IMG/VR virus record: IMGVR_UViG_3300020183_000042
Location: 1-64,000 of that record
Origin: a virus
Strand: one strand, 5' to 3'
DNA length: 64,000 nucleotides
Positions 6,574 to 54,618 of this stretch are shown piece after piece (within the stretch, counting starts at the first letter, position 1; every line of letters begins with the position of its first letter). A program made the translations under genes and the position numbers. Below the pieces are notes generated by a model. The model ran no database searches, was not told the DNA's origin, and saw nothing but the letters and a program-made list of their open reading frames with translations.

Positions 6574-6822
6574 TCACTTTGTTGTAAGTTTATTATATAG
6601 CACAAGACTTATAACGCCACCAGCAACGCCCATGATTAGTCCTGCTGGACTCAAACTGTTGTATTGGCCCAGCACATACAATATGGCGCCACCCATATAA
6701 GATCCTGCCACTCCTAATGCTACTGTTTTAACAAAACCAAAATTCTCTTCGCCAGGAACCAGAGTTTTGGCCACGCTACCAACGAATAAACCATAAACAC
6801 ACCAGACTAGTAAATTAAACAT
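6574..6822 (-). CDS. GlsB/YeaQ/YmgE-like small membrane protein
   Basis: An 82-residue, glycine-rich protein with three hydrophobic segments. The GLFVGSVAKTLVPGEENFG start and two GVAGSYMGG/GVAGGVISL repeats match the transglycosylase-associated YeaQ/YmgE/GlsB family, inner-membrane proteins of unclear function. It overlaps the next upstream gene by 8 bases and starts a run of small membrane proteins. Confidence 0.75.
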   Translation of the reverse strand: MFNLLVWCVYGLFVGSVAKTLVPGEENFGFVKTVALGVAGSYMGGAILYVLGQYNSLSPAGLIMGVAGGVISLVLYNKLTTK

Positions 6823-7204
6823 TTGATGTCTCCACTAAGGCTACTATTTCATCATCCTTGAGGTTTTCTCCATTATCGAACAATGCGCTCATTAATCTCG
6901 TACTATATTTATAATATTGTTCTTTTGACATATTTTCTCTTAGTATTCTTTTGATTCTTAATTTTGTAAACCAGCCCTTTCTAATAGAGTAGTTTTTGAT
7001 TTCTTTTCCGTACAAAGAATATTTGTCTTGTACTGTGCAATCTGACGATAGTTTATTTTTGTTGCATTCTTGTAATACTCTAATAAGGGTCAGTATAATA
7101 CTAATAACCATAAGAATAGCGATTACGCTTCCAAATCGTTCTTCTTCTGGAATATTAGCCTGTTTCATTACTCTTTCACCGATAATTTTTACTTTAGGAT
7201 TCAT
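6815..7204 (-). CDS. Hypothetical membrane protein
   Basis: A 129-residue protein with one strong hydrophobic segment near residues 26-44 (SVIAILMVISIILTLIRVL) followed by a charged, basic region (RKGWFTKLRIKRIL) likely to lie in the cytoplasm. No family is recognised. It overlaps both neighbours by a few bases. Confidence 0.65.
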   Translation of the reverse strand: MNPKVKIIGERVMKQANIPEEERFGSVIAILMVISIILTLIRVLQECNKNKLSSDCTVQDKYSLYGKEIKNYSIRKGWFTKLRIKRILRENMSKEQYYKYSTRLMSALFDNGENLKDDEIVALVETSNV

Positions 7205-7512
7205 TTTTTTATTACCCTTGTTTTACAGTCTGGTTTGATAATTACTGGGGGGTGTGTGATTTCAGACGGAGCGTCACCGCTTTCTGGTTCACAATAACCA
7301 CACTCTACCCTTTTTATACCATCGCCACTAATATACCAACCCTTACCCTTACAAACAGGACATTCTTTTCTTTTATATTTCTTTACGTTTTCTGTTTGAT
7401 GAGACTTGATAATGCTGCCGACTACTGTAACAACACCTGTGGACGATCCGTTGTATCCATAGGCTCCGAATATGATGGATGTTAGCAGAAAGAAGGCGAC
7501 AACCTTATTCAT
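7201..7512 (-). CDS. Secreted or membrane-anchored zinc-ribbon protein
   Basis: A 103-residue protein. The ATG at 7512 is preferred because it gives a signal-peptide-like start (MNKVVAFFLLTSIIFGAYGY). The mature part carries a DnaJ-type zinc ribbon with CPVCKGKGW and a later CGYC, then a proline-rich tail. An exported zinc ribbon is unusual. It belongs to the cluster of small envelope proteins around the papain-like protease. Confidence 0.6.
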   Translation of the reverse strand: MNKVVAFFLLTSIIFGAYGYNGSSTGVVTVVGSIIKSHQTENVKKYKRKECPVCKGKGWYISGDGIKRVECGYCEPESGDAPSEITHPPVIIKPDCKTRVIKK

Positions 7513-7651
7513 TTCTCTTTCTCCATCGTGGTCTTGGTTTGGGAGTATTATCACCCTTTGGACTTGGACTCCACAATTTAATAATCTTGTATAGAAAACC
7601 CAAGAACATTTGAATAGCGCGACCTAATGATATTCTATCAATGAGTTTCAT
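7505..7651 (-). CDS. Small basic protein (48 aa)
   Basis: Starts in an ATGA overlap with the stop of the protease gene and runs into the next start. The product has an amphipathic or hydrophobic N-terminal half (AIQMFLGFLYKIIKLW) and a basic, proline-rich tail (PKPRPRWRKRNE). It could associate with the membrane. No family is recognised; the gene is called from coupling and exact fill of the gap. Confidence 0.55.
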   Translation of the reverse strand: MKLIDRISLGRAIQMFLGFLYKIIKLWSPSPKGDNTPKPRPRWRKRNE

Positions 7652-9696
7652 AAGTATTTCTCGAAATCATAGGATGGAAGTTTTTGAACAGGAAAACCAT
7701 CAAAATTACTAAAAGCATAACTACCATTTTGAGCCAACATTTGACCAGCAACATCGGATCGAATTAAAAATGAGCCGTCTGGAATTGGACCCCATTCTGG
7801 ATGACCACCATCATTCCATTTACCCCAACTATTTTGCACAAGGAAAAGAGGCTCGTTTCCAGTATCATCACACGCTATCCAAGCCATACAATGAGCCCAA
7901 CTACCACTAACATTAGTTACACCGTTCTTATCTCGTTTATTACTAAAGCCAAAACTAGAGCATACGGATAGTCCATAACCATTAGCAAGAGCATCTCGCG
8001 CTTCTTCTACTGTGCGTACCAAACTTACTGTTTTTATTTGATGATCATTAGCCAGGTCTATTACTTTGTCTGGTAATCCTCGACCACCCCAGTTTGTGCC
8101 AATAGTGCTATTATATTTGGTAAAGTCTGCTATTCCCTTGTAGTCTTTACGAACCAGAATACCACCGTTTTTGCTCACAAATTCAGCCGCTCTGGCACAA
8201 CTCATTCCCTGACCACTATGACCTCTAGCACCATAAATAGCTTCTGTGGCACCGCGAGCTATCCAACCCTCTTTTTGTTTATGAATATCAATCTCTACTG
8301 ATCGACTAACATCACACGCATTTCGTGTTCCGTGTGAAACACAATTATGTGAAATTAATCCATTAGCTATAAAAGAATGGTCATGTTCTACATTAATACA
8401 ATAAACATTATCGGTATAGACTTCATTTGTAATTGTGGTAATTGGTGCTAGAAGTCCAAGGCTACAGGTTAACTTATTTTGTTTTACGTGTACTTTGGTC
8501 ATCACAGACAATTCTGGATATATTTTATATACTTGATCACCATATAAATCTATTTGATAAGCCTCTTTACTTCTGTTTCTTGGTTTTCTTTTGCTAATTG
8601 TGTGTTGAATTTGTAAAGAAATTAATATATCAGACATATCTTTTATTAAGACTTTAGAGACTGATACTCCGACAAGTTTGCGTCTTTTGTGGGTTGTAAC
8701 GCTGCCATCACCATCAGACCATCCTCTGAGGAAAGCTATTCTGTGATATCTAGAAGAATTTATTATTTCTCTATTTAAACCTTTTGACCATTGATTACCA
8801 TTTACAAAATAAGAAAATAATCTAGAAACAATAATATTTGAACATCTTACACAACATACATTTTTATCCACTCGATTCATTACCGTGCATTTTGCACCAA
8901 AAATATTGTTTAATAAATATACAATACGATCTCTGAGTTGTGTCTCTTTTATATGTAGATTAAATGTGATTCTTTCTTTATTATTGCCATCTATACCACC
9001 TTCAGCAGCATATAAACCTAAGAGCCACATTAAATCTGTAGATAGTCTAATAAATCTTGGTAAAGTATTTTTGCTACCTTTTATTCTGATATTTGTATCT
9101 GTTGTGTCGTGTTGTAAATTTGAAACATAAGTTAATAAATCTAAAATACGATCATCACTATTTAATGTTTCTTTTTTGGGTAAAACTAACAAATCTCCTT
9201 CTTTAAGATTTTTAGCTTCTATCCATTCATAACCACTATCATTAAAAACCAACATTTTGTGGTCATTAGTTATAGACAAGTTTTTGTCATATTTTTTAAT
9301 ATAGATATGATTGATTTGTCCCTCTGATGGTTTTTTGTTGATCAATTCATAAACCCTTTTAGATTTATTAGTATGGGTTATTACACTATCTCCAATTTTT
9401 ATATCTTCAATATTTTTGATTGAACCATCAGACATTAAGATTGTTGTGCCTTTAACTAAGCAATCTCCTGTTGTTTGTCTTTCGTTATAGGGACTCTTAT
9501 CAAACTTTAACACACTTTTGTATGGAGTACTTAGTTTGCCCTTACCACTATTCTTAATGTTTCTTGCTCCATCAGAGAAATAACTATATTTGGATTCTTC
9601 CATTAGATGATCAAATACATGCTGTTCCCAAAGACATCCACTAAAACCCTTCCTATAGTTGTTATATAAATCTGCTGAACTAAATCGTGGCATCAT
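7648..9696 (-). CDS. Papain-like cysteine protease interrupted by a LAGLIDADG intein
   Basis: A 682-residue precursor. Residues 1-78 and 452-682 form a C1-type peptidase, and residues 79-451 are an intein. After splicing the protease has 309 residues. Its catalytic Cys lies in GDCVSHG, the His in GSWAHC and the Asn in VQNSWG, the papain order Cys-His-Asn. The intein sits directly before the catalytic Cys, which is also the splice +1 nucleophile, so no active protease can exist before splicing. Phage papain-like proteins often occur near tail or lysis genes; here the neighbours are membrane proteins and tail-fibre genes. The role may be in host entry or lysis. Confidence 0.88.
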   Translation of the reverse strand: MMPRFSSADLYNNYRKGFSGCLWEQHVFDHLMEESKYSYFSDGARNIKNSGKGKLSTPYKSVLKFDKSPYNERQTTGDCLVKGTTILMSDGSIKNIEDIKIGDSVITHTNKSKRVYELINKKPSEGQINHIYIKKYDKNLSITNDHKMLVFNDSGYEWIEAKNLKEGDLLVLPKKETLNSDDRILDLLTYVSNLQHDTTDTNIRIKGSKNTLPRFIRLSTDLMWLLGLYAAEGGIDGNNKERITFNLHIKETQLRDRIVYLLNNIFGAKCTVMNRVDKNVCCVRCSNIIVSRLFSYFVNGNQWSKGLNREIINSSRYHRIAFLRGWSDGDGSVTTHKRRKLVGVSVSKVLIKDMSDILISLQIQHTISKRKPRNRSKEAYQIDLYGDQVYKIYPELSVMTKVHVKQNKLTCSLGLLAPITTITNEVYTDNVYCINVEHDHSFIANGLISHNCVSHGTRNACDVSRSVEIDIHKQKEGWIARGATEAIYGARGHSGQGMSCARAAEFVSKNGGILVRKDYKGIADFTKYNSTIGTNWGGRGLPDKVIDLANDHQIKTVSLVRTVEEARDALANGYGLSVCSSFGFSNKRDKNGVTNVSGSWAHCMAWIACDDTGNEPLFLVQNSWGKWNDGGHPEWGPIPDGSFLIRSDVAGQMLAQNGSYAFSNFDGFPVQKLPSYDFEKYL
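8344..9462 (-). mobile_element. Intein with LAGLIDADG homing endonuclease
   Basis: A 373-residue intein. It begins with Cys79 in GDCLVKGTTILM, has a block B TNDH at residues 143-146, and ends LISHN followed by Cys452. Both LAGLIDADG helices are recognisable (LLGLYAAEGGI near 225-235 and LRGWSDGDG near 323-331), each with its acidic residue, so the homing nuclease may be active. The frame is intact, and all splicing residues (Cys1, block B His, penultimate His, terminal Asn, +1 Cys) are present. Confidence 0.9.
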
Positions 9697-10190
9697 TTGC
9701 TCCCTTCGTTACAAGCCCAAGCAAGAGCCTTAAAACTCTCCACAATTTTTGCTCTTAGATCCTTATCTAGAGGCACATTATCATCTCCAACACCAGCCAC
9801 AATAACAGCTTGTGCCGACTTTGCTAAGTCTGGATATTTACCTTTGATGTCCATTCGCAACATTGGACCAGCAAGACCGTTAGCATATCTAACCTCATCC
9901 GTATTCTTGATGACCATATCTTCACCATCTAATTCTATTAATCTAGCAATATCCATATATAGATTAGCTAATCTTTTACCATCTTGAGATCGTGATGATG
10001 GTCCGCTTTTTAAGGAATCTATTACCGGATCACATGCTTCTCGTAATTTGCTATCTGATGGTGGAGTTACCACAACTATTTCATCCACATTAATTCTACC
10101 ACCACTACCAATATTGCTAAAGTCTGGTTTAACCAGACCCACAAGAATTAAAACTGCTGCTAATACTAATAGTAAAACTTTATTATTCAT
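9693..10190 (-). CDS. Membrane-anchored hypothetical protein
   Basis: A 165-residue protein with an N-terminal signal anchor (NNKVLLLVLAAVLILVGLV) and an exported soluble domain with two Cys (EACDPVI and WACNEG). The ATG at 10190 is chosen over an upstream GTG. The stop overlaps the start of the protease gene by four bases, so the two are coupled and may act together in the envelope or virion. Confidence 0.65.
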   Translation of the reverse strand: MNNKVLLLVLAAVLILVGLVKPDFSNIGSGGRINVDEIVVVTPPSDSKLREACDPVIDSLKSGPSSRSQDGKRLANLYMDIARLIELDGEDMVIKNTDEVRYANGLAGPMLRMDIKGKYPDLAKSAQAVIVAGVGDDNVPLDKDLRAKIVESFKALAWACNEGSK

Positions 10191-10584
10191 TATTCTCACC
10201 CTTACAAACTGTTGGACTTAGATATGGAAACATTTGATCGGCCACCTTTACTGCCTCAACGCAACAGCTTTTCACGGCCAGATCGCGCGTTTGCTTCCAA
10301 GATGCTACCAACTGGAAAAACACATCTTCGTTTGTTCTACTATTAGTGGTTACAACTGGAACAACATTAAACGTAGAAGAAGTACCAGATGGAGCAGAAT
10401 TTTTTCTAACACCACTCACTAAACCCTTAGCCTTGTCCACTAATGATAATACTAAATTTTGAACCGGACTTAATTTGTCCTTAAATAGAACCCAAAGGAC
10501 CAAACCCACACCAGCATATAAAGCCAGATCAATTGGCTTGACCGATCTTGAAAATTCTTCGAAACTTTGAGCATAATCTAACAT
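10183..10584 (-). CDS. Hypothetical membrane protein
   Basis: A 133-residue protein with one membrane segment at about residues 18-33 (IDLALYAGVGLVLWVLF). A C-terminal CC pair (VKSCCVEAV) and a lone Cys near the end lie in the predicted soluble part. It overlaps the genes on both sides and belongs to the same run of small envelope proteins. Confidence 0.65.
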   Translation of the reverse strand: MLDYAQSFEEFSRSVKPIDLALYAGVGLVLWVLFKDKLSPVQNLVLSLVDKAKGLVSGVRKNSAPSGTSSTFNVVPVVTTNSRTNEDVFFQLVASWKQTRDLAVKSCCVEAVKVADQMFPYLSPTVCKGENNE

Positions 10585-10967
10585 TATACGTTTCCTTTCT
10601 TTAAGAAAACACCAGTTTGTCTAAAAATTGTTACCATAGCATCTATTGAGGATGATACCATAATCATCAGAATAGATTTGATATACCTATGTATAATAGG
10701 TTCTATGAGATTTGGAACAAGAGGGATATCCACGATTAAAAAAACTTTATCGTAGAAACCGTTAATATATTCTATTGCTAGTTGTTTTTTCTCTGATCCA
10801 CTAAGATTATCCGCAACAGTCTCTATAATCTGAACCGTGCTAGCGGTTACTAATTGTAGAGCTTTCCACGCTTCACTTAGCGCTACGCTTTTTAGGTTGG
10901 TTAACGACTTTTTTAGTTCTTGGTGAAGTTTTTCGGCTTGTTCTAGAACTAGTTCTCGTGGATTCAT
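10584..10967 (-). CDS. Hypothetical protein, possibly membrane-associated
   Basis: A 127-residue protein with an alpha-helical, basic N-terminal half (LVLEQAEKLHQELKKSL) and a more hydrophobic C-terminal half (DKVFLIVDIPLVPNLIEPII and SILMIMVSSSIDAMVTIF). It overlaps the preceding holin-like gene by 95 bases in a different frame, which is unusually long, but a GGAG precedes its ATG. Confidence 0.55.
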   Translation of the reverse strand: MNPRELVLEQAEKLHQELKKSLTNLKSVALSEAWKALQLVTASTVQIIETVADNLSGSEKKQLAIEYINGFYDKVFLIVDIPLVPNLIEPIIHRYIKSILMIMVSSSIDAMVTIFRQTGVFLKKGNV

Positions 10968-11205
10968 TTTTTTTCTTCTCCTCTTGTGCTATTTTTTTAA
11001 CTTCGTTTCTGCCTCTTATATATCTAGCCAATATCCAAACCTGACCACCAATTAGTATTACACTTTCCACAGCATGAGATACTACTGTGATTAATTCTTC
11101 TTTTTGTTCATTCTCTGTTAAAATACCAGTTAAATATAGTCCGCTAAATATGAAGCTTACTAGCGTAAACCAAAATTCACTTGTTTTATAGCCTGATTTG
11201 ATCAT
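10873..11205 (-). CDS. Holin-like two-helix membrane protein
   Basis: A 110-residue protein with two membrane segments (FWFTLVSFIFSGLYLTGIL and AVESVILIGGQVWILARYI) and a highly charged Lys/Arg/Ser/Thr-rich tail. Two helices plus a basic cytoplasmic tail is a common holin layout, but sequence alone cannot prove it. It follows the tail-adhesin genes and precedes the papain-like protease cluster, which would suit a lysis role. Confidence 0.5.
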   Translation of the reverse strand: MIKSGYKTSEFWFTLVSFIFSGLYLTGILTENEQKEELITVVSHAVESVILIGGQVWILARYIRGRNEVKKIAQEEKKKNESTRTSSRTSRKTSPRTKKVVNQPKKRSAK

Positions 11206-11211
11206 AATAAA

Positions 11212-12858
11212 TTAATTTGGCCAAAGAGAATTAAGATCATAACTTGCACTATCAGCAGTACCACCATCATTACTCAACGGACCCATATAATACACATTAG
11301 TTGCGCTACCACCAGTACTATGTTTAGAAAATCCATTAAATATAGCATCACCAGTAATATCTCCGGTATTAATACTCCAATCATCAAAATTAGCACTTCC
11401 ACCTATATTAGAGCTATTTACAGAGCTATCACTAAAAGACGCATCGTTATTAATAGTACCCCCGTTAGCACTCTGACCTTTAAAGAAAGCAAAATCTGAA
11501 CCTATAGTTCCAATATTGATTGCATAATCAGTCATAACCACATAACTACCATTGCTTATACTACAACCAGTGAGGATAAAGCTTCTATGGTGGAATATGG
11601 CTACTGATGAATAGCTTCCAAGAGTTAATGTTGAGTTATTAGCAATGTTTGAATCATCATAGAATTCTACAACACAACCATCAGGAACAGTTAAATTTGC
11701 ATGTAGTTTGGAACTATTAAAGAATTGAATCTTTTTCATAATGCTACTACTAAGAGTTGGCATACTATTAGCTCCAAAACTAACATCATTAAATACTTTA
11801 AGGGTTCCACAATAAATATTACCACTAAAACCATTACCAGTATTTGTACGAAATTCCACGGTAGTATATACATCTCCATTAATTGTGACACTACTGCCAT
11901 TACTTATATCACCATCAGTATTCATTATTAGTGTGCCGCCATACATATTAATATAAGAATTACTAGCAAAATAACTATCAGTATTGAGAGTTAATTTACT
12001 ATTTGGATAATCAGCCTCACTTGCTGAACTATATGAATAAAAGTAATTACTGCTACTACCTTCTATAATGCTGCCCTCATTAAGAGTAACATCATTATAA
12101 AAGTATACATTATCATCAATAATACAGCTATCGGTTAGGGTTACAGGTCCATAAAAGCCATATGGACTTCCAGGGCAATCCATGATTTTTACATTTTCAA
12201 ACAATTCTGTTTTTCCTAAAACCTTTACATATCGTATGGTTGTGGTGCTACTGCTGTTGCCCACAACTCTTAAGTCTCCTAATATTGTTACTGAGTATGA
12301 GCCATTACCATAAATAGGCTGATAATTACTATTTCCACCACTAGAAGTAACAACAACATTTCCTTCTATAGTTACAGATTGACTATTATTATCAATATAA
12401 CTAGTTTCGTGAAAATTCACATCACCATAAATGGTTGTGCTGCTACTAAAATATAGTTTACAATTATCATATAGATCTATTTGTACTCTGGTTCCAGTAC
12501 TACCAATAGTTCCATAACCCGCAAGTTGCCGACCATTTATAAGTATAATATGGCGTACTTCACTAATAGTATAGCCATTAAAACTATTGTTTAGGTCACC
12601 GTTATCAAAAATTATAGTATCAGCAATGAAACTACCACTATTACTACTAATATCACTTAAAATTACAGCAGTATCTTCATCAGTAGGTAAACTATCTGAT
12701 GATAGTGTATGATCTCTATCAACAAACCAATTACCCAAAGTGTTCCAGTCGTTATTAACAGCACTATAAAAATATAGAGTGCGGCCAACGCTCTGACCAT
12801 CACCACCAATGATCCTACCAGATGATTTTACTTCATTCGACCCATAATTAATTGCCAT
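11212..12858 (-). CDS. Tail fibre or adhesin, repetitive beta-rich protein
   Basis: A 548-residue protein, extremely rich in Ser, Asn, Gly, Thr and Tyr, with many short strand-turn units (for example GDVYTT, GNIYCG, GDLRVV, GNVVVT). This pattern fits a parallel beta-helix or similar fibrous adhesin. It has no signal peptide, as expected for a virion protein. It sits with other tail-fibre-type genes, so receptor binding at the virion surface is the likely role. Confidence 0.7.
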   Translation of the reverse strand: MAINYGSNEVKSSGRIIGGDGQSVGRTLYFYSAVNNDWNTLGNWFVDRDHTLSSDSLPTDEDTAVILSDISSNSGSFIADTIIFDNGDLNNSFNGYTISEVRHIILINGRQLAGYGTIGSTGTRVQIDLYDNCKLYFSSSTTIYGDVNFHETSYIDNNSQSVTIEGNVVVTSSGGNSNYQPIYGNGSYSVTILGDLRVVGNSSSTTTIRYVKVLGKTELFENVKIMDCPGSPYGFYGPVTLTDSCIIDDNVYFYNDVTLNEGSIIEGSSSNYFYSYSSASEADYPNSKLTLNTDSYFASNSYINMYGGTLIMNTDGDISNGSSVTINGDVYTTVEFRTNTGNGFSGNIYCGTLKVFNDVSFGANSMPTLSSSIMKKIQFFNSSKLHANLTVPDGCVVEFYDDSNIANNSTLTLGSYSSVAIFHHRSFILTGCSISNGSYVVMTDYAINIGTIGSDFAFFKGQSANGGTINNDASFSDSSVNSSNIGGSANFDDWSINTGDITGDAIFNGFSKHSTGGSATNVYYMGPLSNDGGTADSASYDLNSLWPN

Positions 12859-20698: not shown

Positions 20699-21367
20699 TC
20701 ACCATGCTTTACAAGACCAATATCTTGCTTTCCATTTGGGTCCGGGATTATCACAATTATGTCTGGCTCTAAAACTTTTGCGTCTGGATGGTATATTCTT
20801 TTTGATCTTCATATTAGGATCACCAAAATTCACTTTCACAACATTACCTTTTTCATTTTTCACATAAACACTCATTTTTTTAGGACCACCAGGGGTTCTA
20901 AAGGGTTTATTTAAGGTAACTTTTCTACCTTGATATTCTGAAGCCTTACCTTGATAAACTAGGTATCTTTCATCTTTTTTATAGTTGCCCATTCTATCAT
21001 AATAAAATAATTCAAATGTTTTAGGATCCATATACTTATACTTGGCATCGCTGTCTAAATCAGACAGATCTATTATTTCCACTTCTTCTTCCATATCTAT
21101 ATATTCATTGCTTTCTGGAATAATAATATCCGATAAAGCAATTTCTTCTACAAAACCACAATCATCGCAATCGTTATATCCTATAGAAAATCCAAGAATT
21201 TCTAACACATTATTTAATAAGGAATTTTTTGATTTATTAGTTTGTCCTATACATATTGCGGCTCTTTGTTTAGAATCTGGATATTCTTTTTGCATGGTAT
21301 TATTGCCCATACAACGAGATATAAATTTTTGTTTATCTTCATTTTGATTTGGACTAGGAATTGGCAT
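20699..21367 (-). CDS. Probable virion structural protein
   Basis: A 222-residue protein. The N-terminal region (QKFISRCMGN...YPDSKQRAAICIGQ) and the basic C-terminus (KKMSVYVKNEKGNVVKVNFGD...RRKSFRARHNCDNPGPKWKARYWSC) are modules I associate with T4-like and marine phage head-assembly proteins; this is from memory of such families, not a search. The start at 21367 is chosen because MPIPSPNQNED is the usual opening, and it overlaps the end of the glycosyltransferase gene. Confidence 0.6.
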   Translation of the reverse strand: MPIPSPNQNEDKQKFISRCMGNNTMQKEYPDSKQRAAICIGQTNKSKNSLLNNVLEILGFSIGYNDCDDCGFVEEIALSDIIIPESNEYIDMEEEVEIIDLSDLDSDAKYKYMDPKTFELFYYDRMGNYKKDERYLVYQGKASEYQGRKVTLNKPFRTPGGPKKMSVYVKNEKGNVVKVNFGDPNMKIKKNIPSRRKSFRARHNCDNPGPKWKARYWSCKAW

Positions 21368-22439
21368 GATAACTACCATTCTGTAATAGGGTTTCGTTAA
21401 TAATATTAGCAGTATTAGTCCAGCTATATTTCTGTGCTGTAGCCAATCCTCCTCGATTTGATCTGATGTTATTCTGATACACATATTTCATATAATGCAC
21501 AGTTTGTTCTAGTTGATCGTCTCCCAATTTGGCCCAATTACCTTGACCAAAAAACCATTTTCCATCATTAGCTGGTTCTGTTTCATCAACAGAAATTAAA
21601 AAAGCATTATTATCATTACAATATTCTGTATGAGCAGAATAGAAGGTCGTGATGATTGGTTTATCTAAAGCCATACTTTCCAGAATTTCATTGTTCCAGC
21701 CCTCTGCTCTAGATAGGAAAACACCACAATCGCACCTATATATAAATTCAGCCAAATGATATTGTGTGGGTAGTTTACTATATACTTTAATTTTATCTTT
21801 TAGTTTAGATTGTTCTACCAAATTTAGCCACTGATTAGTTTCTTCATCGTTTAAAAATGGGTTGTGAGGCAATAACCATAATTCTACATCGTCCTGTTCA
21901 TTAAATGATAAATCAAAAGCCTTTATTAGAAGATCGTGACCTTTTCTTAGTTCCCATTTGCCAATATGAAAAAATATATACTTATTATTATTGAATCTAA
22001 TTTTGGGTGGACTATTAAAGATTGTCAAATCAACCGCCAAAGGAGACACATAAATCGGAGTGTTTATACCGTTGTTCTCTAGTATTGTTTTACCCCATGT
22101 CGATGCTGTAAAAATAAAATCAGGATATTTTAAATGATGTTTTTCTCTATCTGTAAAAGTATCTAGTTCAAAAAATGGAAACGCATAATAATGCCCCTTA
22201 CCTATTCTGGAAGCAAGATCATGTTGGTGCCATATTTTTAAACACGGGGCATCATAATCGAATTCGCTACTATTTTTCAGATAATTTTGTACAATAGACT
22301 TATCTGTTTCTGAATTAACTTCGACATTTGTTCCTATAGGGAATAATGCTATATTATTATTGAGATTCTTCATAATGTTTAGTGAAGTAATCCCATACCC
22401 AGTACTATTAATTGTACAATTTAAATTAAGATTTTTCAT
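21354..22439 (-). CDS. Family 4 glycosyltransferase (GT-B)
   Basis: A 361-residue protein with the GT4 signature FFHIGKWELRKGHDLLIKAF and the C-terminal nucleotide-sugar motif EGWNNEILESMALDKPIIT. GT4 enzymes transfer sugars from nucleotide donors with retention of anomeric configuration. Start at 22439 is selected (internal ATG) because it overlaps the GMP reductase end less. It is the first of several glycosyltransferases in this window. Confidence 0.8.
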   Translation of the reverse strand: MKNLNLNCTINSTGYGITSLNIMKNLNNNIALFPIGTNVEVNSETDKSIVQNYLKNSSEFDYDAPCLKIWHQHDLASRIGKGHYYAFPFFELDTFTDREKHHLKYPDFIFTASTWGKTILENNGINTPIYVSPLAVDLTIFNSPPKIRFNNNKYIFFHIGKWELRKGHDLLIKAFDLSFNEQDDVELWLLPHNPFLNDEETNQWLNLVEQSKLKDKIKVYSKLPTQYHLAEFIYRCDCGVFLSRAEGWNNEILESMALDKPIITTFYSAHTEYCNDNNAFLISVDETEPANDGKWFFGQGNWAKLGDDQLEQTVHYMKYVYQNNIRSNRGGLATAQKYSWTNTANIINETLLQNGSYHANS

Positions 22440-23529
22440 ATATTTTATTGTGAGTGTTGTTAACTTGAATGAATGTTGTTTTTTTACCAAAGTCTTTAAT
22501 TTTATTTGCTCCTATATATGTACAAGCACTACGAATGCCACCATAAATATCTTGTATAATTTCTGATACTAATCCTTTGTATGGTACAATAACAGATTTA
22601 CCTTCTGCTGTTCTATAATTTGCAACTCCATCATGGTGTTTATCCATAGCGTCTTTACTACTCATTCCATAGTATTTTAAGGACACTTTTCGCTTTATAT
22701 TATTATCTTGAGGATCTATTGGTTGCCAAGTTCCTAGACTAGCTTTATATTCATAAAACCATTCTCCTTCACATTCGTCGCATCCGGCAAACATACTTCC
22801 TAACATTACAAAATCACTATTCGCCCCAAACGCTTTACAAACATCTCCAACGGTTTTGCATCCTCCATCGCTGCAAATGTGTCCACCAAGACCATGAGCA
22901 GCGTCCGTACATTCCATCACAGCGCTCAGTTGAGGATATCCCACGCCCGTTTTTAAACGAGTGGTGCATACGCTACCTGACCCTATACCAACCTTGACTA
23001 TATCGGCCTTGCCGTGAATAATAAGTTCTTCCACCATTTCAGGCGTTACCACATTTCCTGCCATTATAATAATTTCTGGAAATAGTTTGCGAATATGTGC
23101 GGCTGTTTTCACAAATTGTTCGGTATATCCATTTGCAATATCCAAACACACATTGGGAATATAGCCTCTGCTAAGTTCTACGGTTTTAAAAACACGCTCT
23201 AGTTTTTCTATATCTTTTTTGGATGTGCCTGTTGAATACCAAATATAATCAGTTCGTTTAACAAATAAATTAACTAATACGTCTTCATCATAGTGTTTGT
23301 GTAAGCACGTTATCGCTTTATGAAGCGATAATGATTGCGCCATATTAATGGTTCCAACAGTATCCATGTTGGCCGCAACGATTGGAACACAACTTAGTTC
23401 TCGGGGACTATGAACAAATCTGAATGAACGATGTAGATCGACTTCTGATCGACTCTTTAATACTGAGCGTTTTGGTCGAATCAAAACATCATCGAAATCT
23501 AATTTGATTTCATTAATTATTTTTTGCAT
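22426..23529 (-). CDS. guaC: GMP reductase
   Basis: A 367-residue enzyme of the IMP dehydrogenase/GMP reductase family. The motif GIGSGSVCTTRLKTGVGYPQLS has the catalytic Cys188, with a downstream GGCKTVGDVCKAFGA. No CBS domain is present, and the sequence around the active site agrees with GuaC more than with IMP dehydrogenase. GMP reductase converts GMP to IMP with NADPH, shifting purines toward adenine. Phage copies are rare. It overlaps the 2-deoxyribosyltransferase-like gene by 17 bases. Confidence 0.85.
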   Translation of the reverse strand: MQKIINEIKLDFDDVLIRPKRSVLKSRSEVDLHRSFRFVHSPRELSCVPIVAANMDTVGTINMAQSLSLHKAITCLHKHYDEDVLVNLFVKRTDYIWYSTGTSKKDIEKLERVFKTVELSRGYIPNVCLDIANGYTEQFVKTAAHIRKLFPEIIIMAGNVVTPEMVEELIIHGKADIVKVGIGSGSVCTTRLKTGVGYPQLSAVMECTDAAHGLGGHICSDGGCKTVGDVCKAFGANSDFVMLGSMFAGCDECEGEWFYEYKASLGTWQPIDPQDNNIKRKVSLKYYGMSSKDAMDKHHDGVANYRTAEGKSVIVPYKGLVSEIIQDIYGGIRSACTYIGANKIKDFGKKTTFIQVNNTHNKIYEKS

Positions 23530-24052
23530 TGAAGAAATACCATCTATTGTGAGAATTTATTTCTGACCATGAATTAATATGTATTACATACTCTTTGACT
23601 TGATCCCACGAAGAAAATATCATTTCATGAGGAATAGTTCCAAATAGCCAATCTGGGGCGTGTAGCTTACCCTGCACCATATGTATGATAATAGGCTTTT
23701 TCTGTCTGTTGGCCCAAAAAATTTCTTCGTATGTGCCACACGGATGAATATCTAGATCTAAATTAACTATTAAAAAATCACTAATATCTACGAGTCTTAA
23801 GTCTACGGATCGTATAACTTTCATTAACTGGGACAGTTCATCATAGTTTTTTTCTAGTTTGAGTTTGATCTTGTGTTTATGGGTTTGTTCATCTTCTTGA
23901 CCAACAATAGTAGGTTTTTTAATAGGATTGAAAACAATGACTCCTAAATCTTGTAAGAACGGAGTAATATCATCTCTCCATCCACTCCCCCTATCATGAA
24001 CACGATCCATAGCGCCAGCTAAATAGACTCTTTGATTTTTTAAACGATTCAT
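23513..24052 (-). CDS. Nucleoside 2-deoxyribosyltransferase-like protein
   Basis: A 179-residue protein with the opening RVYLAGAMD, the VFNPIKKP segment and a later SDFLIVNLDLDIHPCGTYEEIFWANRQKKPI, the pattern of the nucleoside deoxyribosyltransferase/SLOG family. These enzymes exchange bases on deoxynucleosides or bind nucleotide ligands. Its overlap with guaC suggests a shared role in purine salvage or remodelling of the nucleotide pool. Confidence 0.7.
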   Translation of the reverse strand: MNRLKNQRVYLAGAMDRVHDRGSGWRDDITPFLQDLGVIVFNPIKKPTIVGQEDEQTHKHKIKLKLEKNYDELSQLMKVIRSVDLRLVDISDFLIVNLDLDIHPCGTYEEIFWANRQKKPIIIHMVQGKLHAPDWLFGTIPHEMIFSSWDQVKEYVIHINSWSEINSHNRWYFFNAKNN

Positions 24053-24055
24053 ATT

Positions 24056-24124
24056 TTACTTTTTAATCTGTTCCAAACCATTAAAGATACCAACTATTAT
24101 AGCTAAAGCAACTAGAATTGTCAT
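24056..24124 (-). CDS. Tiny hydrophobic peptide (22 aa)
   Basis: A 69-base ORF that begins in an ATGA overlap with the duplicated glycosyltransferase fragment. It encodes MTILVALAIIVGIFNGLEQIKK, one possible membrane helix plus a basic tail. No family; it could be a chance ORF in the gap. Confidence 0.3.
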   Translation of the reverse strand: MTILVALAIIVGIFNGLEQIKK

Positions 24125-24349
24125 GCGACACTCTCTATGTGTTCTGATGAAAGTAACATAGTTTGAGAGGGATTTAGAAAAAGATTAAAATTGTTATCTT
24201 TAGAAAATATATCGTGATGAAACATCACATGCTCACAATCATCTCCACTATAATTACCTATTAAAAAAAAATTAGTTTTATAGATCGCCATGCCTCCAAA
24301 TCCACTATTTATTCTAATCGGATCGGAACCGACCGGCAAGATATGTGTT
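24121..24349 (-). pseudogene. Tandem partial duplicate of the glycosyltransferase at 24350-25204
   Basis: In the minus frame the translation reads WFETHILPVGSDPIRINSGF, matching WFGFWILPIGSPIIKANSAF of the neighbouring gene, and continues to NPSQTMLLSSEHIESVA. The main gene ends NPSQTMLV. No ATG precedes this copy. It therefore looks like a remnant of the original C-terminus left by unequal recombination near CAAAnnATGTT motifs; translation is unlikely except from a TTG. Confidence 0.75.
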
Positions 24350-25204
24350 TCAAACCAACATTGTTTGAGATGGGTTTAAAAATAATTCAAACTCAGGATT
24401 ATTATTGTATATACTATGATGAAATGTAACATGCTCGCAATCTTCGCCACTATAAGTGCCAGATAAATAATACTGAGTCTTATAGATAGTCATACCACCA
24501 AATGCGCTATTTGCTTTTATTATTGGTGATCCTATTGGTAAAATCCAAAAACCAAACCATAACATTTGATTGTATTGATTTAAAGTTGATGGTTGAAATT
24601 CCCAGTCATGCCACCAAGTTCCTCTGTAAGCCCAACTATCATAATTCCAAATCATAAGTTGATCTTCTTCTGGTGTTAAATATTTTAGCTCAAAACTATT
24701 ACCAGCCATAGCACCTATATGTTGATTATCATTAAACCACCCAAAAGAATTATATATACCATTAATTTCTATTTGTTTAAAATCTGTATCAAAAACAATT
24801 ATAAAATCATAATCATTAAAATAGTTTGCTATATAGTTTTTTAATATATTTCTATATTCAGCTAGTGCTATTGTTCTGTTTTTATCTTTTACAGTTCCAA
24901 ACTGTGGTCTATTGTATGTGTGCGATATGATCTCAATATTAGAGTATTGATTTTTTAAATTTTCTAATTTTAATTTAGTATTATCTTCAGAATCATTTTC
25001 AAATAATATTATATTAAATCGACGACATTTATTATTAAATATTTCTTGTATAGTATTTATATTATTTTCTATGATATTTTCCACAGATCTACAAAGACCA
25101 ACTAAAGCAATCTTTTTATCTTTTAAAAAATTTAATCCACTATTTATTTTTTTTAGATAATCTTCTTTGTAAGAATCATGCAAAATAAGATTACGTGTGT
25201 TCAT
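24350..25204 (-). CDS. Glycosyltransferase-like protein (possible GT69-type)
   Basis: A 284-residue protein with ALVGLCRSVENIIENNI, FENDSEDNT and FDTDFKQIE, a pattern like cap-associated GT69 enzymes with a DxD-like metal site. The C-terminal third (FGGMTIYKT...DCEHVTFHH) is conserved in the adjacent duplicate. Its stop comes early relative to the duplicate because of the recombination junction. Likely acts on a surface glycan; the substrate is unknown. Confidence 0.7.
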   Translation of the reverse strand: MNTRNLILHDSYKEDYLKKINSGLNFLKDKKIALVGLCRSVENIIENNINTIQEIFNNKCRRFNIILFENDSEDNTKLKLENLKNQYSNIEIISHTYNRPQFGTVKDKNRTIALAEYRNILKNYIANYFNDYDFIIVFDTDFKQIEINGIYNSFGWFNDNQHIGAMAGNSFELKYLTPEEDQLMIWNYDSWAYRGTWWHDWEFQPSTLNQYNQMLWFGFWILPIGSPIIKANSAFGGMTIYKTQYYLSGTYSGEDCEHVTFHHSIYNNNPEFELFLNPSQTMLV

Positions 25205-25833
25205 TATTTAATAACCTTGTTTAAAGTATTTTGAATATTTACTAATCTTTCGGTATCATATGGAAATACTCCACAAGGATGATAAACAAAATCGCCTTCT
25301 TGCCAGTGTGATCCTGGATCTCCAGGCCCATTTCCTGGTTTATTCCAAACGCAAGAGTTAAAAGATCTTAGAGGAGCTACTGTCATAATATCACCAAGAT
25401 TATTTTTATTTGCCGCTAACCAAGTTTGCCACCCACAAACCAATGGTTCCCAAGATGCTTTGTTTTGAGTAATAGCTGTTAAAATAGCTTTGCTTTCATT
25501 AGTATTTTTCCAAACTATAGATCCACAATTAATCAAATTCCATGGTACTATGCCTTCTTCACAAACAGTCATATGCGGACCCAAGCATTCTAATTCCTCA
25601 ATTTTTATATTCATATTAGTAATTAATGTATCAGCATCCATAGTCCATAATACATCATACATATTTAATAAATTTATTAACGATGCCATACCAGCAACTA
25701 TACTTTTATATGGTTGATTATTGACTATTAAAGAATAATTATGCTTAGTACAATATTCTAGTTTATTAGGATTTGTTAATCTAGCCATAGGCTCTATTTC
25801 TTTAGACACATTAGTAAAAATCGCAACTCTCAT
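25204..25833 (-). CDS. GT34-like glycosyltransferase
   Basis: A 209-residue protein with a DxD motif in WTMDADTLITNM, a core like galactosyltransferases of the GMA12/MNN10 family, and C-terminal motifs EGDFVYHPCG. It would transfer a hexose from a nucleotide donor. Its stop overlaps the start of the GT69-like gene by one base, so the two are translated as a unit. Confidence 0.7.
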   Translation of the reverse strand: MRVAIFTNVSKEIEPMARLTNPNKLEYCTKHNYSLIVNNQPYKSIVAGMASLINLLNMYDVLWTMDADTLITNMNIKIEELECLGPHMTVCEEGIVPWNLINCGSIVWKNTNESKAILTAITQNKASWEPLVCGWQTWLAANKNNLGDIMTVAPLRSFNSCVWNKPGNGPGDPGSHWQEGDFVYHPCGVFPYDTERLVNIQNTLNKVIK

Positions 25834-25886
25834 TATAATTCTTTTATATATGGGCCTGACAGTTAAATTGTAGTATCTGTAGAAGT

Positions 25887-26996
25887 TTAAACATTATATA
25901 TATTTTTTACAGTATTATTAGGCAGTAAGTCTTGGTTTATTAGGTTGTTTATATCCAATAAAAAACTATACAATGTTTTTTTATGTTCTTCTACTAAATT
26001 ATTAAAATTTTCTTTAGCATTTTTAATCGTATCTCTGGCATGTTCTATTTCTTGTTTATCATTTCCATATGCAATACCACTATCAAATTCAACATTATTA
26101 TATTTTAATATTCTCGATGATAAGAATTGTTTTTTATCTATACCATCCACAGGATGTAACACTGTTATACATCCACAAAGCGGAGCCATAACTGAGTAAA
26201 ATGTATTAGGATCATAGCAATAAAACTTATCACAATTGTTAAATATTCCAATGATTGGTATTGATTTTTTTTTATTATAATGCGTATCTAAACATATGTC
26301 TTTTCGACTATGATAAGTCTGGATTTTTTTATGAAAAACACCAGGAGCGCAGTGATTAATTTTTTTATAAGCATAACAATTACGGTGTCTGTCACTAGTA
26401 TTATAATTCTTAATATAAGGATCAATCCATAAATTGATCAATTGTTTTGAGTTAATATTTTTGTTTGGCTCCCAGTGATAAACCAAATCGTTTTTGTTCC
26501 ATGTAAAAATTTGTTCTTTTCTAGTATCTATTCCTAACTCTAATAAAATCCATCTAATACAATATCTAGAATTAAGTGGATTACCACCCATAACTTCAGG
26601 ATATATAACTATAGTTTTATCATCTATTAAATTTGGATTAAAAAACTTGTCACAAAATATATTATCATATTTTTTATAGTTATAGCTATACAAAAGAATT
26701 TCAAAATTATCTGGGGCTATTTTTTTAAGTGTTTGTGCTAAATAATGTAATACTATTACTCCGCCACAGGATATATCTAATTCTGGAGTATAAATAACTA
26801 TCTTAATTTTTTCTTTATATGAACTATCTATACTATTAGTGACTTTATCATCAGGATTCATGTTATTATGATTATAAATTAATTGGTCATAATATTGATT
26901 TCTTAAAAAATACACATCTTCGATATGATTAAAAACAGGCGGTGGTTTTTGGAATTTAAGAGTCAAAATTTCTGGATTATAGTAAATTCTAGACAT
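25887..26996 (-). CDS. Glycosyltransferase-like protein (GT-B type)
   Basis: A 369-residue protein. The segment IVIYTPELDISCGGVIVLHYLAQTL is like the donor-side start of GT-B transferases, and VIYPEVMGGNPLNSRYCIRWILLELG resembles LPS-biosynthesis transferases. A later region (GCITVLHPVDGIDKKQFLSSRILKYNNVEFDSGIAYGND) matches the C-terminal part. Acceptor and linkage unknown; part of the glycan cluster. Confidence 0.6.
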   Translation of the reverse strand: MSRIYYNPEILTLKFQKPPPVFNHIEDVYFLRNQYYDQLIYNHNNMNPDDKVTNSIDSSYKEKIKIVIYTPELDISCGGVIVLHYLAQTLKKIAPDNFEILLYSYNYKKYDNIFCDKFFNPNLIDDKTIVIYPEVMGGNPLNSRYCIRWILLELGIDTRKEQIFTWNKNDLVYHWEPNKNINSKQLINLWIDPYIKNYNTSDRHRNCYAYKKINHCAPGVFHKKIQTYHSRKDICLDTHYNKKKSIPIIGIFNNCDKFYCYDPNTFYSVMAPLCGCITVLHPVDGIDKKQFLSSRILKYNNVEFDSGIAYGNDKQEIEHARDTIKNAKENFNNLVEEHKKTLYSFLLDINNLINQDLLPNNTVKNIYNV

Positions 26997-28134
26997 GGTA
27001 TATAAAGTTTTTTATTTGATCACATACATAATCTACGTCTGCAATTGACATTCCATGATGAGCGCCGAGTAAAAATCCATTCCTCATTATAGTATCAGCA
27101 TTATCAAAAGGCTGTAAATAATTTCTATATACAGGATGTCTTGTAACATTACCAGCAAAAGTAACTCGTGTTTGAATATTTTTATTTTCTAAATAATGAA
27201 GTAATGTATATCGATTTTTATATTGCAAAGGTATGGCTAACCAATTCGGCTTAATTGAATCATCTGGTAATAAAATTTCTGGTATATCTTTTAAATTAGC
27301 AAGATATTTTTCAAAAATTTCTCTGCGATGTTTTTCAAACTGGTCAAATCTTTTCAGTTGAACTAATCCAAAAGCTGCATTAATTTCACTACTTTTAAAA
27401 TTATATCCTAAAACTCCATATAGGAATTTATAGTCATAACGAATACCATCTATATCATGATTAAATCTATCGTCCATATTTTCGGAGTTATCGCCTATTC
27501 TTCCCCAGTCCCTAAATTGCAAAGCTTTTTGTTTTAATTTTATATCATTATACATTACCATTCCACCAGCACCACAAGCGGTTATTACATGACTAGCATA
27601 AAAACTGGTTGTGCTAATGTCGCTGTCTGGAGTATTTGTCATTGTGTCCGCAGAATCCTCGATTAAAACAATATCATCTCGATCAATTACAGTAAGTTCT
27701 GCTTTAAGATTTTTCCAGTCTGGTTTGTTTCCAATAAGATTTGGTAACATTATTACTTTTGTATCATCTGATACCAAAGATAATATATCTTCTATACGAG
27801 CAACATAAGAATTTAATCCCACATCGCAAAACACAGGTTCTAGTCCTAGTTGTATTATCGGAGCAAGTGTTGTAGAGAATGTGCAGGCTGGTGTTATTAC
27901 TTTTGACTCTTTTGGTAATTCTAATGATGCTAATGCAAGCAAACAAGCAGAAGATCCAGAGTTAACAAATACGCCATATTTCTTGCCAAAGAAGCTGGAA
28001 ATTTTTTCTTCAAATTCTATAGATTTTGGTCCAAAACCTGCTAATATTCCATCCCTCAAGCATTCTGTAACAGCGTTTATTTCTTCTTCTCCATAAGATT
28101 CAAATTTATTTGGAGCATACCATATCTTTTTCAT
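26989..28134 (-). CDS. PLP sugar enzyme with His in place of the catalytic lysine (RfbH/ColD-like)
   Basis: A 381-residue member of the DegT/DnrJ/EryC1/StrS family. In aminotransferases the PLP lysine lies in SFYATKN; here the segment is TTSFYASHVITACGAGG, with His at that position. This change is the mark of the 3-dehydrases RfbH (E1) and ColD, which remove a hydroxyl group instead of transaminating. A 3-deoxygenation step is therefore likely. Neighbouring 4,6-dehydratase and thiamine enzyme genes support synthesis of a 3,6-dideoxy sugar. Confidence 0.7.
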   Translation of the reverse strand: MKKIWYAPNKFESYGEEEINAVTECLRDGILAGFGPKSIEFEEKISSFFGKKYGVFVNSGSSACLLALASLELPKESKVITPACTFSTTLAPIIQLGLEPVFCDVGLNSYVARIEDILSLVSDDTKVIMLPNLIGNKPDWKNLKAELTVIDRDDIVLIEDSADTMTNTPDSDISTTSFYASHVITACGAGGMVMYNDIKLKQKALQFRDWGRIGDNSENMDDRFNHDIDGIRYDYKFLYGVLGYNFKSSEINAAFGLVQLKRFDQFEKHRREIFEKYLANLKDIPEILLPDDSIKPNWLAIPLQYKNRYTLLHYLENKNIQTRVTFAGNVTRHPVYRNYLQPFDNADTIMRNGFLLGAHHGMSIADVDYVCDQIKNFIYHV

Positions 28135-28136
28135 AT

Positions 28137-28919
28137 TTATAAATCCATTAATATACGATAAGTCTGAAAAATTCTATTCTCTAATGTATCTAATTGTAGG
28201 CCCAGATCGGTGTGTTGACCAGTGTAATTATTGTCCAAACCATCATCACTTGTTTGAATATTGACTTTATTAGACGATAATGTATTAATAATTTTCCCAA
28301 TATCATTTAGGCTATATTTAGTATTATAAACACAATTAATATGTTTTGGTAAGTTATTTGTGCTCAATAAATAATGCTCTAAAATTTTAATAAAATCTTT
28401 CATATGAATAAAATCCATAAATTTATTTTTATGGATAATAATATTTTCTAATTTTTTATATCTTAAAATATTAGATTTTATAAATCTAGTATCTAATTCA
28501 TTATGGTCAAATATACCAAAAATTCTTAAGTTATAAAAATTATCATGACAATCTATTGATCTAGCTATGATTTTTTTGCTTAAACTATATGGTGTTTCGT
28601 GAGAGTAAAATTCTGCACCAGAACCTATATTAATTAATTTATTAAAATATTTTTTATGATCTAATAAATTATAATACATTTTTAAATTTTTTTCGATCTG
28701 ACTATTATTTTCTAGGTTTAGTCTACTGCCACCTTGAATAGCTGTATGTATTACAATATCAAAGTATTGATTTTTAAAAAAATTATGAACATCTAAGAAA
28801 TTTTCTAGATTAAAGTTTTTTCTACTAATTTGAAAAATTTCAAAATCAAATTGTAGACTTTCATATATTGATTTTGCTATATATCCATTACTGCCGGTAA
28901 GTAAAATTTTCTTTTTCAT
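28137..28919 (-). CDS. NAD-dependent sugar epimerase/reductase (extended SDR)
   Basis: A 260-residue protein with the Rossmann start LLTGSNGYIAKSIYESL and a YSLSKKI (YxxxK) catalytic motif, typical of extended SDR enzymes acting on nucleotide sugars. Its start overlaps the kinase gene by four bases. Likely a reductase or epimerase in the neighbouring sugar pathway; the specific reaction is unresolved. Confidence 0.75.
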   Translation of the reverse strand: MKKKILLTGSNGYIAKSIYESLQFDFEIFQISRKNFNLENFLDVHNFFKNQYFDIVIHTAIQGGSRLNLENNSQIEKNLKMYYNLLDHKKYFNKLINIGSGAEFYSHETPYSLSKKIIARSIDCHDNFYNLRIFGIFDHNELDTRFIKSNILRYKKLENIIIHKNKFMDFIHMKDFIKILEHYLLSTNNLPKHINCVYNTKYSLNDIGKIINTLSSNKVNIQTSDDGLDNNYTGQHTDLGLQLDTLENRIFQTYRILMDL

Positions 28920-29836
28920 ATTTTTAAGATAAACTTAGTTAAACCAGTGAGTGTTTCAAAATTTGTTTTATGTAAAACTATCGGATTAGTATAATAATAT
29001 TCAAATATATCTTTAATAAATGGCAATTTTTGAGGTATACCACCACTAAGTATAATAGTATAATGATCAAATAGAATATATTCCTTATATTGAATAACTA
29101 GAGTTTTTAATATAGAACTCAATAAATTATTTAATGTAAAACTATTTTCATTAATATTAAAAATACCACCACCACCAGAATACTTATGTGATTGTTCGAA
29201 AACATTTAAATCTATATTAAGTGAAGATTTAACTATATCTTCAATTTTAATTGATTTCATTAAATCAAATATATCTATATTTATTTCATTAAAAAATTTT
29301 GCAAATACTAGTAGTGCTCTACCAGCTGGAATATATTTATTTATTGTATTTTTTGTAATAACTTGTGATCCAGTTCCTATATTGATAACATATTCTTGAT
29401 CTTGAATATTCATACATTCTATTACACAATTAGTATCGCCCAGAGAGCTATAAAATATATGATCATTTAAACATCCCAAAGGAATAATATTATTGATATC
29501 ACCACCATGATGTTGATGAATATGATATGTTTTTTGGTCTATAAAAAGCTGGCTAATTAAACAATCTGGTTTTGATTGTTTTTTTAAAACTTTCCATGAA
29601 TAATATATATCATTAATCCATTCGCCCCCAAGAATACTACAGGATATAATATATTTACACTCCGGATAAATGTTTAGAATATTTAAAATTATATCTAATA
29701 ACTCTTGTTTAGATATAGTTTCAGATTTAGTAAAAGGAGAAGTTATACTTATCGTGGAGCTAATTTGATTAGTATTTTTATCAAATTTACAACACTTTAT
29801 AAAACTTGCACCAAAATCAATTAGTAAGTATTGCAT
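28916..29836 (-). CDS. ASKHA-fold sugar kinase
   Basis: A 306-residue kinase of the FGGY/ROK-type ASKHA fold: phosphate-1 motif IDFGASFIKC, phosphate-2 motif INIGTGSQV, and adenosine motif ILSGGI. The INIGTGSQ form is common in sedoheptulokinase-like proteins. Because the next gene encodes a sugar-phosphate cyclase, it may phosphorylate the substrate that is cyclised. It overlaps the cyclase gene by 20 bases. Confidence 0.65.
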   Translation of the reverse strand: MQYLLIDFGASFIKCCKFDKNTNQISSTISITSPFTKSETISKQELLDIILNILNIYPECKYIISCSILGGEWINDIYYSWKVLKKQSKPDCLISQLFIDQKTYHIHQHHGGDINNIIPLGCLNDHIFYSSLGDTNCVIECMNIQDQEYVINIGTGSQVITKNTINKYIPAGRALLVFAKFFNEINIDIFDLMKSIKIEDIVKSSLNIDLNVFEQSHKYSGGGGIFNINENSFTLNNLLSSILKTLVIQYKEYILFDHYTIILSGGIPQKLPFIKDIFEYYYTNPIVLHKTNFETLTGLTKFILKI

Positions 29837-30836
29837 CGAGTTTATTTATTAATGTATCATTAATTTCTGTTGGTACAAATCTAGTAACGCCGGGTTCATC
29901 AACCACAATTAGTGTAATTTTATCTAGTTGTGATTTTTTATCATGTTTTAATAAATGTATAATTTGTTTACTATCTATATTTTTAATTCTCTGAAGAGCT
30001 GTATACTTATGTACAGTGTCTGTAATTAATTTTGATTTACTAAATAATTGATTTATAATTTCTATACCTAATAACACAGCTTCTCCATGAGGTATTGAAT
30101 AGTTGGATGCTGCTTCAATAGCGTGTCCAAAAGAGTGTCCATAATTCAAGCATTTTCTAATATTTTTTTCAAATTCATCATATTCTACTATGATCTTTTT
30201 AATTGCTAAACCATCACGAATTTGATTCTGTAAAGCAGAGTCTAGCGAATCTAAAAAGTGTTTACCTCCAATAAGAAAAAATTTAACTATTTCTCCCATT
30301 CCACTAAGTATTTCTTGTTTTGGCAAAGATTGAAGAAATTGCGTATCTATAATTACAGATCTTGGTGCAGAAAATAGGGCTAGTTGATTTTTCGTTGATC
30401 CAAAATTAAGGGCGGTTTTACCACCAATACAACTATCACACTGAGATAAAAGTGTAGTTGGAACATATGTCCACTTTATACCTCTTTTATATATACTACC
30501 CACAAAAGCACCTATATCTTGCGTAATACCTCCGCCAATAACATAAAGATGATTGCCCTTATTAAAGTTTTTATCTGCTAACCATCCACAAGCCATTAAT
30601 GCTGTTTCAATAGTTTTATTTTTTTCTGTAGCTTCTATTATCATCATATTTGAGTGTTTGATATCATATAAATCGTATATATTTTGATCTATGATAAGAA
30701 AATCATTAGATGTAAATTCACCACTAAATTTTTCAAAAACCACATGGTAATCATTAGGTATAGATTTGATAATAAAATTATCAGAACTTATATCTTCAAA
30801 CGAGAAATGTATATTATCTACAATAAAATTTTGCAT
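29817..30836 (-). CDS. 3-dehydroquinate-synthase-like sugar-phosphate cyclase
   Basis: A 339-residue enzyme of the AroB superfamily with NAD motif GGGITQDIGAF, VPTTLLSQCDSCIGGKT, and metal ligands in GEIVKFF, NYGHSFGHAIE and HGEAVLLG. These enzymes cyclise a C7 sugar phosphate using NAD and zinc. A lone gene far from other shikimate genes and flanked by a sugar kinase and thiamine enzyme suggests a specialised cyclase, for example acting on sedoheptulose 7-phosphate, rather than aromatic synthesis. Exact product unknown. Confidence 0.75.
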   Translation of the reverse strand: MQNFIVDNIHFSFEDISSDNFIIKSIPNDYHVVFEKFSGEFTSNDFLIIDQNIYDLYDIKHSNMMIIEATEKNKTIETALMACGWLADKNFNKGNHLYVIGGGITQDIGAFVGSIYKRGIKWTYVPTTLLSQCDSCIGGKTALNFGSTKNQLALFSAPRSVIIDTQFLQSLPKQEILSGMGEIVKFFLIGGKHFLDSLDSALQNQIRDGLAIKKIIVEYDEFEKNIRKCLNYGHSFGHAIEAASNYSIPHGEAVLLGIEIINQLFSKSKLITDTVHKYTALQRIKNIDSKQIIHLLKHDKKSQLDKITLIVVDEPGVTRFVPTEINDTLINKLDAILTN

Positions 30837-30837
30837 A

Positions 30838-34313: not shown

Positions 34314-34607
34314 TTATAACCAATCCTTAGTATTCATATTTTTATCATCAATAAATAAATCATAATTAGGCTTACCAAACTTTAAACCGTGATATTGAAC
34401 TCCCCATTCTTTGAATTGATTTTTTGTAACTTCTGTCCAATCTAAGCCGGTTGCTGTTCCTCTGGCAGTCCAATAGATTATAGTATGACCATCATCATAT
34501 AATTTATTAGCTTTTATTATATTTTCTATAATAGGAGTACTACTTATATAGTCTGGCTTATTAGGACTATGGCAGATAGTTTCGTCAATATCGATATATA
34601 TGATCAT
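34314..34607 (-). CDS. HAD-like sugar phosphatase
   Basis: A 97-residue HAD-superfamily phosphatase: DIDETIC carries the nucleophile Asp, YWTARG the Thr/Ser motif, and KPNYDLFIDDK the Asp pair. Such small enzymes dephosphorylate sugar or nucleotide phosphates. ATG at 34607 is chosen because it starts MIIYIDIDETIC. It immediately precedes neuB. Confidence 0.75.
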   Translation of the reverse strand: MIIYIDIDETICHSPNKPDYISSTPIIENIIKANKLYDDGHTIIYWTARGTATGLDWTEVTKNQFKEWGVQYHGLKFGKPNYDLFIDDKNMNTKDWL

Positions 34608-34608
34608 T

Positions 34609-35358: not shown

Positions 35359-35362
35359 GTAA

Positions 35363-54608: not shown

Positions 54609-54618
54609 ATTATTTTAG

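Follow-up and report, generated by a model that had tools for sequence, protein, structure and literature searches.

Inteins that lie in the active sites of their host proteins follow a known rule (PMC7765530; PMC5050341). In the mycobacterial DnaB intein DnaBi1 the +1 residue is the P-loop Ser, a residue of the host active site (PMC6195587), and this doubling of the +1 nucleophile as a host active-site residue is also found in the phage protease described here. However, DnaBi1 (PMC6195587) is a class 3 mini-intein at an ATPase P-loop Ser, whereas the phage protease carries a class 1-type intein with a LAGLIDADG endonuclease at a catalytic Cys. The terminase (TerL) genes of mycobacteriophages likewise hold several inteins near functional motifs of one phage gene; both their splicing and their cleavage of intein-less alleles have been demonstrated, and their penultimate residue may be non-canonical (PMC5050341). 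The TerL inteins occupy several positions in the ATPase domain, whereas several intein types share a single codon of the protease. Ribonucleotide reductases (RNRs) of phages and bacteria also carry inteins, which are likewise sporadic in phages (PMC3653736), and the RNR of L001, a sister phage of the one studied here, is an instance, but the host enzyme is a different one and the insertion site is unrelated. PI-SceI and PI-PkoII resemble our intein in block A and in LAGLIDADG architecture, but are distant in sequence and reside in other host proteins.

The DNA analyzed (the window) is the first 64,000 nucleotides of the IMG/VR virus record IMGVR_UViG_3300020183_000042. We read the locus, with a probability of about 0.88, as a LAGLIDADG class 1 homing intein that invaded the catalytic Cys codon of a phage papain-like (C1) protease, a selfish element that makes protease activation dependent on splicing, probably without regulating it. 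The features of the gene are given below, in which A3 is an alignment of 65 diverse homologues of the protease.

7648..9696, minus strand: papain-like cysteine protease precursor ORF interrupted by the intein, 682 aa, no internal stop (ORF listing)
9463..9696, minus strand: N-extein, precursor residues 1-78, ending in NERQTTGD and holding the putative oxyanion Gln74
9475-9477, minus strand: codon of the putative oxyanion Gln74, aligned with the C1 Gln (NQG) in a profile alignment
8344..9462, minus strand: intein of 373 aa, Cys79 to Asn451, splicing domain plus LAGLIDADG homing endonuclease (Pfam; empty site of L001; homologous intein at the same codon in L082/L091)
9460-9462, minus strand: codon of intein Cys79
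9424..9462, minus strand: intein block A (CLVKGTTILMSDG) with the Cys1 nucleophile (from sequence; resembles the PI-SceI N-terminus)
9259..9270, minus strand: intein block B TxxH (TNDH), from an alignment of five inteins at this site
8998..9024, minus strand: LAGLIDADG motif 1 (LLGLYAAEG), from the intein alignment and a Pfam family match
8704..8730, minus strand: LAGLIDADG motif 2 (LRGWSDGDG), from the intein alignment and the LAGLIDADG_3 match at residues 320-385
8344..8406, minus strand: intein blocks F and G (VYCINVEHDHSFIANGLISHN) with penultimate His and terminal Asn451 (NCBIfam intein_Cterm, 431-452)
8344-8346, minus strand: codon of intein Asn451
8341..8343, minus strand: Cys452, the +1 extein nucleophile and protease catalytic Cys, aligned with the C1 catalytic Cys
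7651..8343, minus strand: C-extein, residues 452-682, the remainder of the papain-like fold (AlphaFold2 model of the L001 homologue; Foldseek)
7891..7893, minus strand: catalytic His602 (GSWAHCM), from profile alignments; invariant in A3
7831..7833, minus strand: catalytic Asn622 (VQNSWG), from profile alignments; invariant in A3

An earlier note, made from the letters of the window, had placed an intein at 8341-9462. The intein is real, that span being the intein plus the +1 codon, and the boundaries read at that time agree to the codon with those given by domain searches. The precursor matches the Pfam families Intein_splicing (E=7.8e-16) and LAGLIDADG_3 (E=7e-13), and residues 431-452 score 29.8 bits with NCBIfam intein_Cterm, above its cut-off of 15.6. 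The residues of a class 1 intein are all present (C79, TNDH in block B, S-H-N451 and C452 at +1), and uninterrupted homologues lack exactly this insert. The homing nuclease motifs, which the earlier note had described as looking intact, were both recovered; each carries an acidic residue, and both are conserved in an alignment of the inteins of the window, L091 and L090, which are 73-75% identical. Between the window and L091 the intein gave dN 0.156 and dS 1.25, and its endonuclease part 0.168 versus 1.56. Among the three inteins dN/dS was about 0.1 in splicing and endonuclease parts alike, an approximate value given the high dS and a rough estimate of selection because dS is near saturation. 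Such purifying selection in both parts, the nuclease included, suggests that the splicing and endonuclease activities both appear to be kept in inteins of this type. The window intein is predicted to splice, and its endonuclease to cut the empty site.

The host protein was less readily assigned. The joined extein had no sequence matches in Pfam, PHROGs or the PDB and no tblastn matches among 50,697 phage records. Single homologues gave sub-threshold Pfam Peptidase_C1 matches in 14 of 30 cases (best E 0.002) and none above the cut-off, and thus kinship is claimed at the superfamily level. An AlphaFold prediction from a shallow alignment of 30 close homologues reached a pLDDT of 44 and was discarded, whereas the AlphaFold2 model of the L001 protein built from A3 had a pLDDT of 89 and a pTM of 0.91. 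This model has a papain-like fold by Foldseek, its best PDB matches all being C1 peptidases (E 2e-10 to 4e-7), of which xylellain is first (E=2e-10) followed by cathepsin B and plant enzymes; among the viral matches are phage proteins that bear a peptidase C1 annotation. The TM-scores, normalized by query length, reach a moderate 0.4-0.6, which again places the kinship at the superfamily level. Xylellain (PDB 3ois) and cathepsin B have the fold and the Gln/Cys/His/Asn residues in common with the phage protease, but the latter is only about 13-18% identical to the best C1 structures and belongs to a family of uncultured phages.

The A3 profile also picks up a cathepsin chimera and a surface cysteine protease of C. 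difficile, and in these matches the blocks around the His and the Asn are aligned. Compared by hhalign with nine C1 domains from bacterial genomes, the profile gave a probability of 97.3% and E=2.7e-11. In that alignment L001 Gln73, Cys78, His228 and Asn248 fall on the C1 catalytic residues, their equivalents in the window precursor being Gln74, Cys452, His602 and Asn622; the oxyanion Gln and the catalytic Cys, His and Asn are therefore present in the expected order. The equivalent of Cys452, which opens the C-extein sequence CVSHGTRNACD, is kept throughout the A3 homologues, four Cys-less paralogues excepted. In the L001 model Cys78 starts a long helix (residues 78-98), and in papain the catalytic Cys likewise stands at the start of a long helix. 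The residue alignment and the helix position together argue that the catalytic Cys and the +1 splice residue are one, which bears out the earlier reading of both the papain-like protease and the dual Cys: fold prediction, Foldseek and aligned catalytic residues agree. By profile and structure comparison only, the protein is thus a predicted relative of the C1 peptidases at the superfamily level.

We think it very unlikely that the element has lost splicing, or that its host lacks protease activity, such that the insertion would be of no consequence for activity. The catalytic Cys is missing from some proteins of the wider family, and catalysis is thus dispensable in some paralogues, but all class 1 residues and all host catalytic residues are present here, Cys, His and Asn are invariant among the orthologues, and the C-extein has a low dN/dS (dN 0.186, dS 1.31).

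The class 1 pathway of intein splicing is established, and its application to this precursor would run as follows. The chain would be broken between Gly-Asp and the nucleophilic Cys, and Cys79 would start splicing by forming a thioester. Cys452 would then take over the N-extein to give a branched thioester, Asn451 would cyclize, and an S-to-N shift would form the Asp78-Cys452 peptide bond and free the Cys452 thiol, which could then act as the protease nucleophile. The anatomy of the gene points to a precursor that is inactive and to an active site that splicing creates. Protease activation would therefore need splicing, probably without being regulated by it.

The back-up that the earlier note had said could undo its reading, a paralogous protease supplying the activity, was looked for, and no active one was found among 14 related contigs. 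A single uninterrupted protease copy is present in 11 of the 14 (contigs of up to 244 kb), and in G014 the only copy is the intein-split one. The other two have a second, longer copy in which the His and NSWG are kept and the Cys is lost (KSGTAYG, DSGTAFA), and which is therefore not expected to supply cysteine protease activity. No second copy was found in the window's own contig, an 84.7-kb fragment. The Cys-less paralogue, of about 527 aa (L069:8256-9839, L079:10564-12144 and L294-L300), is a phage pseudoprotease.

When the joined extein was searched against viral contigs, 185 relatives were obtained, of which 80 were kept. The 80 fetched homologues are uninterrupted, 76-93% identical and have GDCVSH at the insertion site. 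The sister phage L001, with 91-98% DNA identity to the window across most of 12 kb, has the exact empty site: GGAGAT is followed directly by TGTGTTTCACACGG, whereas in the window the intein stands between GGAGAT and TGTGTTTCACACGG. The uninterrupted GDCVSH homologues and this exact empty site show that the insert is not due to chance. By equally strict patterns the empty site is present in at least 120 viral contigs versus seven with a His-Asn/Cys junction.

A wider junction pattern, in which the Cys is preceded by an intein with a terminal Asn and the His is not required, gave 16 other contigs with an intein at the catalytic Cys codon (17 with the window); some are near-copies, and 16 should hence not be read as the number of independent events. 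All inserts with a readable start begin with Cys. The inteins fall into at least five sequence groups, with about 34% identity or less between groups over their length, although the groups may share a distant ancestor and thus five groups are no proof of five origins.

Group (i): window, L091, L090/L087/L092 and the L088 mini-intein; penultimate His
Group (ii): L332/L335/L334; penultimate Asn
Group (iii): L339; penultimate Lys
Group (iv): L093/L089, L337 and L333/L340; penultimate His
Group (v): L336/L338; penultimate Lys

The L088 mini-intein has 170 aa and no endonuclease, and its splicing halves are 48-54% identical to those of the window. A tree of the joined host proteins with five occupied alleles requires five changes, and it places empty alleles as sisters to the window, L090, L091 and L088. 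For the 13 occupied rows of a tree of the C-extein, 10 changes are required, of which at least eight are forced by well supported branches. L091 and L332/L335 are close hosts with inteins only about 32% identical, and the window phage has a protease intein and an intact RNR whereas its sister L001 has an RNR intein and an empty protease site. Such gains, losses and replacements are what a homing element leaves behind. A search of the flanks of the insertion gave no clear co-conversion tract, and homing is therefore argued from the distribution and the conserved motifs.

The insertion site is one of the best conserved parts of the gene, and the intein may be held there because imprecise loss would destroy the active site and because conserved DNA would be a stable target for the endonuclease, a target that would lie in the intein-free relatives. 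The intein would spread by homing, with frequent loss or replacement. Another view, that different inteins settled repeatedly at the catalytic codon since a zymogen-like delay helps the phage, for instance by holding up a protease tied to lysis or assembly, with splicing as a post-translational timer, seems to us very unlikely.

The earlier note had also proposed that protease activation could be tied to splicing conditions, and for this we found no support. The intein would then be a retained regulatory switch, a redox, metal or other signal delaying splicing and freeing the protease at the right stage of infection. The active site logically requires splicing, both junction nucleophiles are Cys, all inteins of the window type and the mini-intein have a further Cys in block F (position 355), and conditional splicing is documented in other inteins (PMC6195587). 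However, a regulatory intein should be retained across relatives in a way that fits the function of the host gene, whereas occupancy is scattered and the intein mostly absent, the sister phage L001 included. Moreover, unrelated inteins occupy this codon, in close hosts too, and their penultimate residue may be His, Asn or Lys, which argues against a common sensor, and the purifying selection on the endonuclease is expected if homing keeps the element. A conserved switch is therefore disfavored by the intein-free sisters, the scattered occupancy and the unrelated inteins at the same codon, and we consider it very unlikely, although a switch in this phage alone is conceivable. From its distribution the catalytic codon is a hotspot that has long hosted a selfish element, and not a dedicated on/off switch.

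Other inteins were seen in these phages. The L001 class II RNR gene (8643-12023) has an intein at 9612-10799 that directly precedes the Cys of NPC and ends in Arg in place of Asn (NGITSRR before C). This intein is also found in L318, the two contigs being 89% identical, and is either non-canonical or dead, yet kept in frame. In the L093 record (G014, 175,823 bases) intein-like matches fall in the protease gene, a class II RNR gene and a gene of the DNA polymerase III alpha type.

The phage is tailed, with the T4-like genes rIIA, rIIB and clamp loader, and belongs to an uncultured group with no matching phage records. Small membrane-type proteins flank the protease gene (window 6574-7554 and 9693-11205) in an order common to relatives, and one of them has weak holin similarity (phrog_6918, E 3e-4); a role of the protease in lysis is possible. 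A T4-type prohead protease or endolysin role was also considered; neither Peptidase_S77 nor Phage_lysozyme was found in the relatives, but, as the S77 search matched nowhere at all, this negative carries little weight. The phage protease gene is also carried by L083, L084 and L085/L086, which were binned as Flavobacteriales, SAR202 and Lokiarchaeota MAGs. As the L084 protein is 100% identical to one on the 167-kb viral contig L094, the binned contigs look to be phage. The window also has a tmRNA gene (54618-54972, tag GNNQLALAA) near tRNA-Ile(tat) and tRNA-Leu(taa) and a sugar biosynthesis cluster (21354-36310) of glycosyltransferase, dehydrogenase, NeuB, DegT aminotransferase, TPP enzyme and epimerase.

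In the literature searched, which takes in only a minority of subscription journals, neither an intein in a papain-like protease nor several intein types at the catalytic codon of one was found, and the papain-like peptidase host and the several inteins at one catalytic Cys codon look new. One thiol would perform two catalytic jobs in turn, first as splice acceptor and then as protease nucleophile, such that the spliced product would be readable as enzyme activity and a zymogen-like precursor would arise at no cost. The family of phage proteins, unannotated and missed by the family libraries searched, is given a likely function. The five or more intein groups, one with an endonuclease-less mini-intein, stand beside close empty alleles and form a natural series suited to the study of intein gain, replacement, decay and loss in uncultured phages.
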